In this document: in pieces, positions 50,908 through 62,300 of the stretch
How positions within the stretch are numbered: position 1 is the first letter of the stretch
Layout of the letters: the number at the start of each line of letters is the position of its first letter
Assembly: GCA_022841825.1 (NCBI GenBank)
Contig: JALHQT010000001.1
Span: 620,001 to 684,000, forward strand
Direction: 5' to 3'
Length of the DNA stretch: 64,000 nucleotides
From: Anaerolineae bacterium
GTDB taxonomy: Bacteria > Chloroflexota > Anaerolineae > Aggregatilineales > Phototrophicaceae
The notes under the pieces: generated by a model
Told to the model about the DNA's origin: nothing
The model's database searches: none
What the model saw: only the letters and a program-made list of their open reading frames with translations
Made by a program: the position numbers and the translations under genes

Positions 50908-51165
50908 ATGTTTCGAGGCATTGACCGTTCCAAGACGCTCTCTCGATCCCTTGAAGGCATGTCAAATACGCTGGCAAAACGGCGTGGTCTCCTCCCGCTT
51001 ATGGGAATACTACTCGTCATCGTCAGCTTCATCATCCGACTGATTATGCCATTCACGGTGGGCTTGCCCGCCTATGCCGTGCTCGATCTCCTCTGGACAA
51101 TCACACATCACCTCGGCATTCTCATGGCACTCATTGGCATCCTGCTCATCGAACCGCTGGGGTGA
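50908..51165 (+). CDS. Small two-helix membrane protein
   Basis: 85 residues. A basic, soluble first third (MFRGIDRSKTLSRSLEGMSNTLAKRRG) and two hydrophobic helices (LLPLMGILLVIVSFIIRLI; LGILMALIGILLIEPLG). I do not recognise the family. It is sandwiched between hflX (three bases upstream) and the GNAT/GIY-YIG gene (whose GTGATCATG start region overlaps its stop), so it is translated as part of that operon and is very probably a real gene. Confidence 0.75.
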   Translation: MFRGIDRSKTLSRSLEGMSNTLAKRRGLLPLMGILLVIVSFIIRLIMPFTVGLPAYAVLDLLWTITHHLGILMALIGILLIEPLG

Positions 51166-51167
51166 TC

Positions 51168-52235
51168 ATGCCTGACATAAGAGTCCTCGGCACGCCTGCC
51201 GAATTCAACCAGATTCCCGACTTGGAAATCGCCGTTTGGGGACTTCCAGCGAAGGACGTGGTATCTGGGAACATCATCCGCGCCATAACGCTGAACGGAG
51301 GCGTCGCGCATGGCGCGTTTGATGGCTCGCGCATGGTTGGCATGTCGCTGGCGCTAGTCGGGCTGCGCAGCAGGAAAGCGATCCTCTGGTCGCACATGGC
51401 AGCCGTCATCCCGGATCTTCAAGGGCAAGGCATCGGATTCGCCATCAAGCAGGCGCAGCGGGATTGGGCATTGGCGCACGGGTACGATGAGATGCGTTGG
51501 ACGTTTGACCCCATCCAACGTGGAAATGCGCACTTCAACCTTCATCTCCTGGGCTGCACGACCGAGATCTACCATGTGGATTTCTATGGCAGCATGGCGG
51601 ATGCCATTAACGTAGCGGCACCGACAGATCGGCTGGAAGCGATCTGGAAGCTCAAGGACGCGCGCGTCAAACAGCTTGCGATTGGCGACCTCCCCCGAAC
51701 ACATAGCGCAGCCACGCTTGAGCAATCCCTCCTTCTCCGCGACGACGCTGGCACGCCTCTACCGCTCCAAGTGCAGCGCTCTCCAGAGTTCGTCTACGTC
51801 CAGATTCCGCGCCGAGCACGCGACCTGGATGCCGCCGGGATGAACGTCTGGCGACACGCTTTGCGTTCTGCGCTGCAAACGGCGTTTGCGAATGGCTACC
51901 GCGCGGTTGACCTGATGGAAAGTGACCAGGGTACGTATTATGTCCTGGAACGTCAGCCCGGCTACGTACTTTATGTAGTTGAATGTGCGGACAGAACGCT
52001 CTACACAGGGATAGCCAGGGACGTGCAGGCGCGTGTGCAGCAGCACAACGCCGGAAAAGGTGCGGCATACACCGCAGCGCGTCGTCCCGTTCGCCTGCTC
52101 GCCGCTTGGTCCTTCCCAAATCGTTCAGCCGCATTGAAGGCAGAGGCATCGTTCAAGAAGCAGTCGCGCGCGCAGAAAACGCAGAACATCAGCAACCAAC
52201 AGGAATTTCAGGGTGGATTGCCTGTGCAGCTTTAG
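51168..52235 (+). CDS. Fusion of a GNAT-type acetyltransferase and a GIY-YIG nuclease domain
   Basis: 355 residues. 1-255: COG3375-like acetyltransferase with VAHGAFDGSRMVGMSLAL, WSHMAAVIPDLQGQGIGFAIKQAQRDWAL (acetyl-CoA loop) and MRWTFDPIQRGNAHFNLHLLG. 265-340: GIY-YIG domain of the YhbQ (UPF0213) type with GYVLYVVECADRTLYTGIA, the basic residue in DVQARVQQHN, GKGAAYTAARRPVRLL and the metal-binding Glu in ALKAEASFKK. In most genomes these are separate small proteins; here they are one. The ATG at 51168 may be replaced by GTG at 51162, which overlaps the previous stop (GTGA). Confidence 0.85.
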   Translation: MPDIRVLGTPAEFNQIPDLEIAVWGLPAKDVVSGNIIRAITLNGGVAHGAFDGSRMVGMSLALVGLRSRKAILWSHMAAVIPDLQGQGIGFAIKQAQRDWALAHGYDEMRWTFDPIQRGNAHFNLHLLGCTTEIYHVDFYGSMADAINVAAPTDRLEAIWKLKDARVKQLAIGDLPRTHSAATLEQSLLLRDDAGTPLPLQVQRSPEFVYVQIPRRARDLDAAGMNVWRHALRSALQTAFANGYRAVDLMESDQGTYYVLERQPGYVLYVVECADRTLYTGIARDVQARVQQHNAGKGAAYTAARRPVRLLAAWSFPNRSAALKAEASFKKQSRAQKTQNISNQQEFQGGLPVQL

Positions 52236-52361: not shown

Positions 52362-53831
52362 ATGCGTTCACGTCTTTCTATTGGTTTGCTGTCTGTACTG
52401 CTGGTATTGCTGATCGTTCCTGCGACATTCGCACAGACTTCTCTGCCCGACCTGGGCGGGCGGACGGTGGCGATTGCGGTCGAGAATGCCTACATTCCGT
52501 TCAACTACATCGACGAAGCATCGGGTGAAGCCGTCGGTTTCGACTACGATGTCATGAACGAAATCTGCGCGCGCATCAACTGCACCCCCGAGTTCGTCCA
52601 GACCACCTGGGATGCCCTGCTGGTCGGCGTCGCCGCCGGAGAATTCGATGTCGGCGCGTCCGGCATCACCATCACCGAAGAGCGCGAGCAAACCGTCGAC
52701 TTCTCGATGGGCGTCATCGCAACCTCCCAGGTGCTGCTCACCCGCCTCGGCGAAGACCGCTTTGCCTCCGTCCAGGAATTCGTCGATGGCGACTTCTTCC
52801 TCGGCACGCAGCGCGGCACCACCAACTATGACCTCGCGGTCGAACTGGTCGGCGAAGCGCGCATCGTCGCCTTCGAGGAATTCGGACCCACCATCCAGGC
52901 GCTGGTCAACGGCGATGTCGATGCCGTCATCATCGACAGCACCTCCGGTCAGGGTTACGTTGGCGAGAACGATGAATTGCTCACCATCATCAACGAACCT
53001 CTGACCTCCGACTTCCTCGGCTATGCCTTCGTCGAAGGTTCCGACCTTGTTGAGCCGTTCGATGCCGCCCTTGTCTCCATGATGGACGACGGCACACTCG
53101 CGATCATCAGTGCGACCTGGTTCCCGCCTGTGTTGCCGGATCTCGGCGGAAGCACAGTCGCGATTGCGGTCGAGAATGCCTACATTCCGTTCAACTACAT
53201 CGACGAAGCATCGGGTGAAGCCGTCGGTTTCGACTACGATGTCATGAACGAAATCTGCGCGCGCATCAACTGCACCCCCGAGTTCGTCCAGACCACCTGG
53301 GATGCCCTGCTGGTCGGCGTCGCCGCCGGAGAATTCGATGTCGGCGCGTCCGGCATCACCATCACCGAAGAGCGCGAGCAAACCGTCGACTTCTCGATGG
53401 GCGTCATCGCAACCTCCCAGGTGCTGCTCACCCGCCTCGGCGAAGACCGCTTTGCCTCCGTCCAGGAATTCGTCGATGGCGACTTCTTCCTCGGCACGCA
53501 GCGCGGCACCACCAACTATGACCTCGCGGTCGAACTGGTCGGCGAAGCGCGCATCGTCGCCTTCGAGGAATTCGGACCCACCATCCAGGCGCTGGTCAAC
53601 GGCGATGTCGATGCCGTCATCATCGACAGCACCTCCGGTCAGGGTTACGTTGGCGAGAACGATGAATTGCTCACCATCATCAACGAACCTCTGACCTCCG
53701 ACTTCCTCGGCTATGCCTTCGTCGAAGGTTCCGACCTTGTTGAGCCGTTCGATGCCGCCCTTGTCTCCATGATGGACGACGGCACGCTCGCCGAGATCAT
53801 CGCCACCTGGTTCCCACCCGTGAGTCCCTAA
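52362..53831 (+). CDS. Tandem-duplicated amino-acid-type binding protein (SBP family 3)
   Basis: 489 residues: signal peptide (IGLLSVLLVLLIVPATFA) then two complete family 3 solute-binding domains, residues about 28-255 and 258-489, joined by VLPDLGG. Each has VAIAVENAYIPFNYIDEASGEAVGFDYDVMNEI, GITITEEREQTVDFS and the second lobe FFLGTQRGTTNYDL...DAVIIDSTSGQGYV. The two are identical except at their edges. No lipobox, so the way it is held at the membrane is unclear. AGGAGG stands before the ATG at 52362. It binds a small polar solute such as an amino acid for the permease that follows; no ATPase gene is nearby. Confidence 0.92.
   Translation: MRSRLSIGLLSVLLVLLIVPATFAQTSLPDLGGRTVAIAVENAYIPFNYIDEASGEAVGFDYDVMNEICARINCTPEFVQTTWDALLVGVAAGEFDVGASGITITEEREQTVDFSMGVIATSQVLLTRLGEDRFASVQEFVDGDFFLGTQRGTTNYDLAVELVGEARIVAFEEFGPTIQALVNGDVDAVIIDSTSGQGYVGENDELLTIINEPLTSDFLGYAFVEGSDLVEPFDAALVSMMDDGTLAIISATWFPPVLPDLGGSTVAIAVENAYIPFNYIDEASGEAVGFDYDVMNEICARINCTPEFVQTTWDALLVGVAAGEFDVGASGITITEEREQTVDFSMGVIATSQVLLTRLGEDRFASVQEFVDGDFFLGTQRGTTNYDLAVELVGEARIVAFEEFGPTIQALVNGDVDAVIIDSTSGQGYVGENDELLTIINEPLTSDFLGYAFVEGSDLVEPFDAALVSMMDDGTLAEIIATWFPPVSP
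52470..53095 (+). repeat. Exact 626-base repeat, copy 1
   Basis: Identical base for base with 53160-53785 (offset 690). Just outside, homologous coding sequence is diverged: the 27 bases before each copy (52443-52469 and 53133-53159) encode nearly the same peptide with nine mismatches. Confidence 0.97.
53160..53785 (+). repeat. Exact 626-base repeat, copy 2
   Basis: Second copy of the repeat, forming the second binding domain of the same gene. The first mismatches lie at 53159 and 53786 relative to copy 1. Confidence 0.97.
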
Positions 53832-53914: not shown

Positions 53915-55075
53915 ATGACAATTGCTCCCAAAACAAGTGAACAGAATTCTTCCAGGCTTACCCCCGCGTCCGGCAGCGGCGCACTGAAGACACTATTTTC
54001 TTTCCCCTGGTGGCTGCTGGTCATGGCGCTCGTGCTGGTCTGGTTGATCTACCTGATCGCAGTTGGCAACACGCCTGTCATCCTGTCCAGTGTCGGTAAT
54101 CTAGCCTATGTAGGCGTCAACGACTTTGAAGACCTCGAAGACCTGGATTTCTCGATGGGTGTAGTCGCGGGCAGCCCACAGGTCGAAGAGGCGCTCGAAT
54201 ATGTCGGCAGCGAACGCTTAACAGAATTCGAGACCTTTGATGACGCGATACGCGCGCTGCTGTCAAACGAAGTCGGTGGCGTCGTGGTTGAGCCGTTTTT
54301 CGGGCAAAACTACGCACGCAGCAATACGTCAACGGTTGACCTCCATACGGATAATTTCTTCGCGGATACGTTTCGCGAAGTCAGTGAAGGTCTCCCAATC
54401 ACGCTTGGAGTGGTCGCAATTGCCTACTCCTCCGCTATCCTGATCGGGCTGCTGGTCGGACTCATCCGCTCCTCGCCGCCCAAACCAGGAATCGGCTTTC
54501 AGAATGGGCTTGCTGCCTTCGGTCGCCTGATCGTGTATCAGCTTGCCACCCTTTACGTATCGATCCTGCGCGGACTGCCGATCCTGGTCACACTCCTGGT
54601 GACAGCCTTCGTCCTCATGCCCATCTTTCGCAGCACATTGACGAACCTCGGTGTCACGCTGCCTCGGCAGCTCTTCCTCCAGGCAGGCATTGTTGCGCTG
54701 GCTATCGCATACGGCGCGTTCCTGTCCGAGACGTTTCGCGCAGGCATTCAGTCGATTGAACGGGGACAGATCGAAGCTGCACGTTCACTAGGCATGTCCT
54801 ACATCCAGGTCATCCGCCACATCGTCCTGCCACAGGCGATCCGGCGCATCCTTCCGCCGCTCGGCAACGACATGATCGCCATGATCAAAGACACATCACT
54901 GGTCTCCGCCCTCGGCGTGAACGACATCACACAACTTGCATCACTCTGGTCAGCCACCACATTTCGCTATCCGGAGGTGCTATTTGTCCTGGCGATGATC
55001 TATCTCACCATGACTATCCTTGGGTCACTCTTCGTGCGCTGGATTGAAGGGCGGATGGCAATACCAGGTCGATGA
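53915..55075 (+). CDS. Amino-acid ABC permease with half binding-protein lobe inserted after first helix
   Basis: 386 residues. First helix WWLLVMALVLVWLIYLIAV (about 31-50), then an outer segment of about 100 residues (65-165) that aligns with the second lobe of the upstream binding protein: DLDFSMGVVAGSPQVEEALEYVG / DGDFFLGTQRGTTNYDLAVELVG, and FETFDDAIRALLSNEVGGVVVEPFFGQNY / FEEFGPTIQALVNGDVDAVIIDSTSGQGY. After it comes a normal HisM/GlnP-type permease with ILRGLPILVTLL and the ATPase-contact loop EAARSLGMSYIQVIRHIVLPQAIR. The ATG at 53915 begins a short cytosolic tail. Lies downstream of the duplicated binding protein; no ATPase gene follows. Confidence 0.9.
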   Translation: MTIAPKTSEQNSSRLTPASGSGALKTLFSFPWWLLVMALVLVWLIYLIAVGNTPVILSSVGNLAYVGVNDFEDLEDLDFSMGVVAGSPQVEEALEYVGSERLTEFETFDDAIRALLSNEVGGVVVEPFFGQNYARSNTSTVDLHTDNFFADTFREVSEGLPITLGVVAIAYSSAILIGLLVGLIRSSPPKPGIGFQNGLAAFGRLIVYQLATLYVSILRGLPILVTLLVTAFVLMPIFRSTLTNLGVTLPRQLFLQAGIVALAIAYGAFLSETFRAGIQSIERGQIEAARSLGMSYIQVIRHIVLPQAIRRILPPLGNDMIAMIKDTSLVSALGVNDITQLASLWSATTFRYPEVLFVLAMIYLTMTILGSLFVRWIEGRMAIPGR

Positions 55076-59399: not shown

Positions 59400-62300
59400 A
59401 TGCCTTCATTGACTCGCCCGTCTCGTGCGCTCGTCGGCATCCTCCTGGCGCTCGTCAGCTTGATGCTGGCGACAGTGGCATGCAATCTGATCGCGGGAGA
59501 ACCTACCGCAGAAGCGCTCCCCACCATCAGCGATATTCTCACGCAGACACTGCCGCCAAGCCGGACGCCGCAAACGACCAGCGGCGCGCCGACGCCTCTA
59601 CCAGGCGTCACGCTTCCTGCGCAAAGCGTGCCCACCCAGGTCTTGGTCGTGCCGACAGCAGTACGCCCACCGAGCCTGCCTACGCCAACACCGCTGCCCA
59701 TCAGTATCGTCATCCTGGCACCCGTGCCAGGGAACGTTCTGGCGGGTAACGTACAGGTAGTCGGTGCGGCAACCCATCCCAATTTCCTGCAATACCAGGT
59801 CGAAGTCGGACCTGACCCCAATCCCAGCAATCTCTGGTACCCCATCACCGCCGCAATACAGACGCCCGTCATCAACGGCGTTCTCAGCATCTGGAATACA
59901 ACGACTGTCAGCGACGCAACTTACGCCCTCCGCCTCCGTGTATATCTGCGTGATGGCACTACGCTCACGACCGTCGTCAACAACATCCGCGTGCAGAATC
60001 AGATTCCCACGCCGGTTCCATCTCCGACCCCGAATATCCCGCGCCCCATCGCTGCCTTCACTCAGGACCGCGTCGTCGGCAATGTTCCGATGACCGTCCG
60101 GTTCTCGAACCAATCCAGCGGCAGCATCACTGGCTATCAGTGGAGTTTCGGCGACGGCAGTAGCAGCACAGAAATCAACCCCGTCAAGACCTACAATACG
60201 CCGGGACTGTTCACCGTCACGCTGACGGTCAACGGACCGGGCGGGTCATCCAATGTATCACAGCAAATCAATGTTCAGAGTCCCACTGTGCCAGTTGCCA
60301 ATTTCGATGCGAATCCGCTCGTCGGCAACGCACCGCTGGCGGTTGCATTCACCGATCGCTCGACCGGTGGTCAAATCACGAGCTGGGCTTGGAACTTCAG
60401 TGATGGCGGCAGCGCAAACATCCAGAACCCGACTTACGTCTTCAACGCCGCTGGCACATTCAATGTCATCCTGACCGTCTCCGGTCCCGGCGGCACATCA
60501 ACCTTCACTCGCCAAATCGTCGTCAACGTTCCATTCACGCCGACGCCAACCGCCACCAGCACGCCAGTTCCTGCGACAGAAACTCCCACCGCAACCGGAA
60601 CCCAAACGCCGACCCAGGTGGCAATGGCGTTTACGGCGACTCCAACCGAAACGCCGACCAGCACCATCATTCCACCAACCGAGACCCCGACAAGCACTCT
60701 GGTACCGCCCACCGAAACGCCAACCAACACTTCGGTTCCACCGACGGAAACGGCAACATCGACAGTTCCTCCGCCAACAGAAACACCAACCAACACAGTC
60801 GTGCCACCAACCGAGACCCCTACGAGCACCCTGGTGCCGCCGACTGAGACCCCCACAAACACCGTGGTACCGCCGACCGAGACGCCAGAGCCGCCGACGG
60901 CGACCCCTGTGCCAGCCACCCAAACGCCGACGAACACGCCAGAACCTACGCCGACGGACACGCCGATCCCGTTCATCGTTCCTGTTCCGGGCTTCACGGC
61001 AATCCCTGACCCGGTGAACACGCTGTTCTGGTCGTTCAGCAGCACCTCGACGGGCGACATCGCCAGCTATGCCTGGGACTTTGACGGCAATGGCACCATT
61101 GACAGCTCCGATGCCAACACAAGCTTCGCCTTCCCCACATCAGGCACCTACACGGCAACTCTGACGGTCACCGGCACCGACGGGCTGCCCTACGCCACGT
61201 CCCAGACGCTCAACGTAGTGCTCCCGTTTGCAGCACCCGTCGCAGCAATCACAACCGAGTTCCCTGACCCATCGAACCCGCTCCTGGTGCAGTTCCGTGC
61301 CAATGCCAGCGGGAACATCGCGGCTTACGCCTGGGATTTCGGAGACACGGTAGGCTTCAGCGATCAGGTTGATCCGCAGTATCAGTACCTCACGGGCGGC
61401 ATCACCTACACCGTTACGCTAACGCTGACGGGCACAGACGGAAATGCCTACCCGTTCAGCACCCAGGTCACCGTCACGTCACCTGTGCAGCCACCAACGT
61501 CGGCTTTCAGCTTTGCTATTCCCGACCCGAATGCGCCGCTGACCGTTCAGTTCACCGACTTGTCGTCCGGTGACTTCGATACATACCAGTGGGAGTTCGG
61601 TGACGGGGCTGGATTCAGTGGAGATGCAAACCCGATCTACACCTACGCGGCAGGCGGCACCTACACCGTTCGACTCACGGTGATCAACAGCAGCACCACC
61701 GAGTCAAACACAAGCGAGCAGCAGGTCAGCGTCGCCACGCCATCGCCGACAATTCCGCCGATTGTCACCGACACCTCTGTCCGACCCAACATTCCGAACC
61801 TATCAGGCGCACTATCCGGTGTCTACAGCGTTGGGCAGACTACGCCGCCTTCCGGCACGCCGAATAACCCGCTCGTCTTCACGGTGGCTGGCGATGAATA
61901 CATCGATGGCGCAGGCATCATCGAGGTCTTCAGCACATACGACCTGGCAAGCATTCCGCAGGACAATCTTCGCTCGGTCGTTGAAGGCTTCAGCACGACC
62001 ATCCTGCCCGACAACACCAACAGCTTTAGTAACGCATCGGCGGCGGCCGAACCCGGATGGACCGCTGCCGATCTGCTCGACCCAAGTGTCGCTAACCCAG
62101 CGATCTGCTCTGGGACAACACCACTTGCCTGCGAAATTGCGCGCAATCGTCCAAGCATCATGCTCATCAGTGTGGGCTACCACGATGCGCTCGCATCCAC
62201 CGATCCATCCGTTTTCGCCGTCCAGCTTCAGGACATCATCAACACGGTTACGGCACAAGGCGTCATACCAGTACTGGTCACCGCGCCCCCGCGCAATGAC

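Follow-up and report, generated by a model that had tools for sequence, protein, structure and literature searches.

A secreted binding protein of an ABC importer in an Anaerolineae bacterium very probably owes its form to an old in-frame duplication whose two halves have since been homogenised by homologous exchange, with relatives across the order found both in this trapped state and in a drifted one. The gene occupies 52362-53831 of the window, the whole stretch of 64,000 nucleotides that was analysed, and is an open frame of 489 amino acids running on the plus strand from an ATG at 52362 to a TAA at 53831. Below, G000 is the code of the window's genome, and h1 and h2 are the first and second half of a two-domain gene.

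The product would be a secreted substrate-binding protein of a polar-amino-acid-type ABC importer in which one family 3 domain follows another. The SBP_bac_3 profile (PF00497) matches it in two stretches that cover both domains (E 6e-67, 223.9 bits against a curated cut-off of 26.4), so the two complete binding domains claimed in the sequence-only reading are indeed present in one open frame. They are also complete in the predicted structure of the 489-residue protein (mean pLDDT 92, pTM 0.70), and each half resembles amino-acid-binding proteins of known structure, for example ArtJ and glutamine-binding proteins, with Z about 30. The translation begins with a hydrophobic signal segment (52362-52442, plus strand) that ends in ATFAQTS and lacks a lipobox cysteine. 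No lipobox was found in the translations of the tandem protein or of the genome's two other matches to the binding domain. We infer that the signal is cleaved and the protein secreted.

The identity between the two halves is confirmed base for base. At an offset of 690 nt, the plus-strand cores at 52470-53095 and 53160-53785 agree at all 626 bases, a repeat that exceeds chance expectation. The diverged homologous edges were likewise read correctly. The 27 bases 5′ of each copy (52443-52469, LPDLGGRTV; 53133-53159, LPDLGGSTV) encode nearly the same peptide and differ at 9 of 27 positions. On the 3′ side the copies differ again from 53096 and 53786 onward, with LAIISATWF at the edge of copy 1 (52470 copy, edge 53096-53123) and LAEIIATWF in copy 2, whose edge, tail and stop fill 53786-53831. 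A linker of nine residues, PPVLPDLGG (53124-53150), joins the domains, and G031, G032, G013, G017, G054 and G053 have one of similar sequence and length. Used as a DNA query against its own genome (5.9 Mb, 21 contigs), the 626-nt core gave two matches, both here, on a contig of 1.46 Mb. A search of the window for direct repeats (14-nt seed, minimum 60 nt) returned one other family only: at 60609-60920, seven imperfect 33-nt repeats lie within the gene for a large protein and encode PPTETPT-like peptide repeats. Overall the G000 halves are 0.982 identical to each other, and the best match of either to a half of any other gene is 0.706. In the lineage of the window, the central 626 nt of one half would have been overwritten recently from the other half via homologous exchange, and the edges, which adjoin unlike flanks, would have escaped.

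Long identical repeats invite the suspicion of an assembly or polishing artefact, in which slightly unlike copies were made identical or a second copy was invented. The gene is in fact broken by contig ends in G007, G011, G033, G035, G059, G072, G077 and G079, and by N in G062; most family genomes are in many contigs, and polishing may blur small differences. An invented copy would have identical edges, however, and any differences close to the diverged edges should have been preserved by reads that anchor there, yet identity starts directly at those edges. Many assemblies show intermediate, patchy divergence, and the one-contig genome G058 has halves 0.993 identical. We consider an artefact very unlikely; our trust in the individual bases of the G000 core comes from seeing the same pattern in many assemblies and from the onset of identity at the anchoring edges. 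We had also considered contig ends as evidence of true identical repeats. They fall inside the gene in 8 genomes against 12.0 expected (n=86), and in 4 against 0.9 expected among the 31 assemblies with no more than 100 contigs; with no overall excess, this line of evidence was dropped. Short-read assemblies may hide or merge copies of this kind.

Tandem genes of this type are common in the family. Among 98 same-family genomes, 86 match one domain at 1e-30 or better, and loci were taken from 81 of these (G038, G042, G052, G060 and G074 were left out). Pairing was limited to genes uninterrupted by contig ends or N. The survey yielded 52 in-frame two-domain genes in at least 50 of the 98 genomes, and a homologous permease lies on the same strand within the examined stretch at 47 of the 52 loci. 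Single-domain relatives were found too, and other lineages have two unlike halves in one gene. The nearest relatives of the window gene, in G031 and G032, share 63-67% identity per domain with it and have the permease downstream. Half-to-half identity across the 52 genes runs from 1.000 (G090, 669 nt) through 0.999 (G047 and G048) down to 0.628. In 28 genes, G000 included, the closest half to each is its own partner rather than one from a different gene, at synonymous sites as well and in several lineages, as concerted evolution would have it. The sequence-only reading had looked to just such greater likeness within than between genomes for support; it appears in these 28 and fails to appear in the other 24, whose halves are not each other's nearest.

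The age of the duplication can be judged from the linkers. An EP.A junction is common to G046, G047, G048 and G050, and GDGEAEEE-type junctions occur in eight species. The halves in G047 and G048 are 0.957-0.960 identical between the species and 0.999 within each gene, a difference of about 4% versus 0.1%. Since these linkers are common to several species whose halves are nonetheless alike, the duplication is older than the identity in those groups, and wherever a group of species shares a unique linker we regard this order of events as shown by the sequences. The linker of G000 consists of tail plus head only and has no unique junction, so the evidence for an old duplication of the window gene comes from its short homologous edges, which have diverged, and from orthologues whose halves have done so too. 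Inherited linkers, edges and orthologues support the earlier claim of an old rather than a fresh duplication.

The competing view is that a single-domain gene was duplicated in tandem recently and independently, lineage by lineage. The near-identical halves of some lineages, the tail-plus-head linker of G000 and the existence of single-domain relatives would all suit it. It is contradicted for the groups in which species with homogenised halves have unique linker junctions in common, and it does not agree with diverged homologous edges around a perfect core. Two-domain orthologues with separated halves (dS between halves 0.55 in G031 and 0.31 in G032), both beside the same permease, also speak against it. 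Repeated fresh duplication is a very unlikely explanation, and an old duplication with later homogenisation is preferred.

Trees gave a mixed picture. In a quick protein tree the halves were sisters within many genes; h1 grouped with h1 and h2 with h2 in G031/G032, G023/G026 and G021/G022, and G073/G069/G089 were sorted likewise. A more careful tree of 14 rows did not resolve the G031/G032 halves by position, and the G032 halves are 0.890 identical to each other versus 0.835 to those of G031. A clade of G000_h1, G031_h1 and G032_h1 was rejected (p-AU 2.7e-89), a necessary outcome because the G000 halves are so alike.

Homogenisation is not confined to one family. In family f3 of the same order, G112, G127, G150 and G153 (four genera) agree pairwise at 12-13 of 19 linker residues, an agreement that is partly the LPDL.G motif common to all. 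Half-to-half identity there is 1.000 in G112 (669 nt exact), 0.962 in G127 (546 nt exact), 0.728 in G150 and 0.821 in G153. In family f6, G108 reaches 0.941. This order-level sample consists of nine loci among many matches, and G102 did not pair. Order-wide, there would be two states, one in which halves are trapped in repeated homogenisation and one in which they have drifted apart.

Overwriting should leave tracts, and some genes have them. Synonymous differences were shuffled along each gene with at least 5 of them (n=48), and the longest unbroken run of identity was compared with 2000 shuffles. A significant tract (p<0.01) was present in 8 of 48 genes (G000, p 0.0005; G064, G015b, G066, G032, G084, G091 and G067), as against 13 of 376 between-genome control pairs (protein identity at least 0.8, 5-120 synonymous differences, 500 shuffles), which are mutually non-independent. 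The other 40 genes had none, among them some that are highly similar throughout: G082 (p 0.28), G030b (0.26), G046 (0.26) and G075 (0.63). At the order level, G127 (p 0.0005) and G153 (0.0075) were significant and G150 (0.39) and G108 (0.92) were not. The domain edges tell a similar story. We divided third-position divergence within the 21 genes whose halves reach at least 0.85 identity by that between genomes, along 11 bins; the ratio stays at 0.20-0.29 in bins 2-9 and rises to 0.45, 0.40 and 0.38 in bins 1, 10 and 11. Such fading of identity is expected at the edges because exchanging repeats have unlike flanks. The synonymous profile between orthologue halves, proposed in advance as a check, is thus patchy in some genes and raised at the domain edges. 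Internal exact tracts that are diverged on both sides measure 419 nt in G066, 176 nt in G084 and 219 nt in G032; these three are among the 8 of 48 tract-bearing genes, which together with the edge effect give the signature of conversion, internal tracts bounded by diverged sequence.

Close species offer a second view of overwriting. G066 and G094 are 0.921 identical between first halves and 0.725 between second halves, and G066 h1 and h2 are 0.966 identical to each other. For G088 and G073 the corresponding values are 0.944 and 0.748, with 0.851 between the G088 halves. All four genes have GDGEAEEE-type linkers in common. Read most simply, these comparisons mean that the second half of G066 and that of G088 were replaced by sequence from the first. 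It is possible instead that G094 acquired a foreign second half by transfer, because its h2 is near that of G073 (0.891) and the first halves are less so (0.811).

The homogenised pattern is plain, and the route that we infer behind it would be either gene conversion or an unequal exchange after which the array went back to two copies. The sequence-only reading had invoked gene conversion. In the broad sense of homologous exchange, this agrees with the tracts, the edge effect and the 28 of 52 genes; the narrow sense goes further than these data, as unequal exchange leaves similar traces. Adjacent direct repeats are the classic substrate for unequal crossing-over, and the two domains are such repeats. 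An array that passed through one or three domains and back to two would be homogenised without non-reciprocal conversion, and its outer edges and linker would be preserved, as observed. Single-domain relatives exist, and in four genomes a third domain lies 42 nt downstream, in frame behind a stop. Against this, no uninterrupted run of three full-length domains occurs among the 52 in-frame arrays, a set made up of arrays that contig ends do not cut, and the internal exact tracts of G066, G084 and G032 need two exchange points, so that conversion fits them better. Both observations appear to favour conversion, and unequal crossing-over, though it deserves some weight, is the less likely route.

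The third domain is of interest in its own right. In L026, L029, L031 and L033 (G089, G088, G073 and G069), it stands in frame behind a single TGA (ATG TGA CTG) and has no signal segment of its own. It is not homogenised, being 0.64-0.68 identical to h2 and 0.66-0.69 to h1. Between species its dN/dS is 0.14-0.22; for the first two domains, 9 of 12 comparisons give 0.03-0.06. The stop may be read through, or the third domain may be a decaying gene. The four h2-h3 pairs with a stop were excluded from the tandem counts.

Purifying selection could in principle keep two domains equal without any exchange. dN/dS between halves is very low in some genes (G075, dS 0.42 with dN 0; G087, dS 0.63 with dN 0.008); in G000 it is 0.207, based on few edge changes. 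Above dS 0.7 the median is lower within than between genomes, 0.131 (n=9) versus 0.377 (n=243) and 0.151 (n=9) versus 0.216 (n=1410), with between-genome pairs that mix half types. Below dS 0.7 the medians within and between are alike (0.049 and 0.033, 0.027 and 0.038, 0.105 and 0.114). Given this split, and the mixing of half types, we do not claim selection for equal halves from dN/dS. Selection on the protein gives no account of identity at synonymous sites, which refutes it as the cause of the 626-nt identity. It may act alongside exchange, and as the sole explanation it is hardly credible.

Several neighbouring genes deserve mention. The permease gene at 53915-55075 (plus strand; BPD_transp_1, Pfam 1.4e-24) presumably belongs to the same importer as the tandem protein. 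Its first outer loop, about 54062-54349, contains a stretch of about 95 residues that resembles lobe 2 of the binding domain (29% identity to binding-domain residues 86-178, E 1.7e-8). Among 21 aligned permeases, the insert occurs in G000 and G013 only. The loop alone gave only weak matches against Pfam and PDB sequences, and confidence in the permease model (mean pLDDT 73.8) is low on either side of the loop. The protein at 51162-52235, encoded upstream of the tandem gene, combines a GIY-YIG domain (E 1.4e-13) with a weak acetyltransferase match in front of it (19.9 bits, below the cut-off). Homologues of it occur in 13 of 52 tandem loci; in the longer G031 record (L037) one lies about 3 kb upstream, with another gene between. 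Elsewhere in G000, the binding lobes of another family-3-like protein (L006 1375-2454, C1 near 808043) are separated by two hydrophobic stretches, and we take the protein to resemble a prokaryote glutamate-receptor-like channel.

The TxxR-motif arginine and the second-lobe aspartate, which we take to be ligand contacts in SBP_bac_3 proteins, are kept in 104 of 104 and 103 of 104 halves of the family's two-domain genes. Nearly all halves therefore look able to bind an amino-acid-like ligand. At 17 candidate pocket positions, chosen by motif, the two halves have the same residues in all 21 genes whose halves are at least 0.85 identical. Differences occur in 22 of the remaining 31 genes, often D versus G in DGIT or in the residue after AY, and are largely due to overall divergence. 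Identical halves would give each secreted molecule twice as many equal sites, and separated halves may differ in ligand. Fused domains may also raise the capture rate, as the sequence-only reading suggested with GlnPQ in mind. A change in the drifted genes from doubled dose to two ligands would agree with the pocket differences, which do not prove it. A bolder proposal, which we offer as speculation and think doubtful, is that the gene acts across the order as a natural recombination switch: homogenised halves would provide dose, escaped halves two specificities, and reconversion in either direction would reset the gene, with intragenic conversion, not point mutation, editing the range of ligands.

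Neither ingredient of this system is new by itself: family 3 domains in tandem and concerted evolution among prokaryotes have each been described. GlnPQ of Lactococcus lactis likewise has two family 3 amino-acid-binding domains in series in one importer, and its SBD1 and SBD2 are unlike in ligand and largely independent in action (PMC8025302). The window domain matches the GlnPQ tandem chain 6h30 in two stretches. The GlnPQ domains are joined to the transmembrane part and differ in ligand, whereas those of the window form a separate secreted protein and are identical. There is no GlnPQ-type fusion to the permease here, the genes at 52362-53831 and 53915-55075 being separate. Long-lasting concerted evolution is described for tuf and other prokaryote gene pairs, in which, as here, paralogues are recurrently more similar within than between species, at synonymous sites too (PMC6053082). 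Those units are whole gene pairs, unlike the domains within a single gene considered here. In the main text of that paper, neither the term transporter nor the term binding protein appears. In polyketide and nonribosomal peptide synthases, repeated domains are homogenised by internal recombination, and the trapped-then-break-out model outlined in that work fits the two states seen here (PMC4256081). Those synthases are multi-module enzymes, in contrast to a two-domain binding protein. No description of concerted evolution of binding-protein domains was among the matches listed, in a search that covers subscription journals thinly. As far as the literature was searched, what is new is that both features are joined in one small gene across an order, with trapped and separated states side by side.

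The 52 genes, with halves from 100% to 63% identical, amount to a natural experiment on concerted evolution inside one gene. Such a range makes the point at which recombination stops holding the domains together measurable. It also means that the specificity of such domains is untraceable by position alone.
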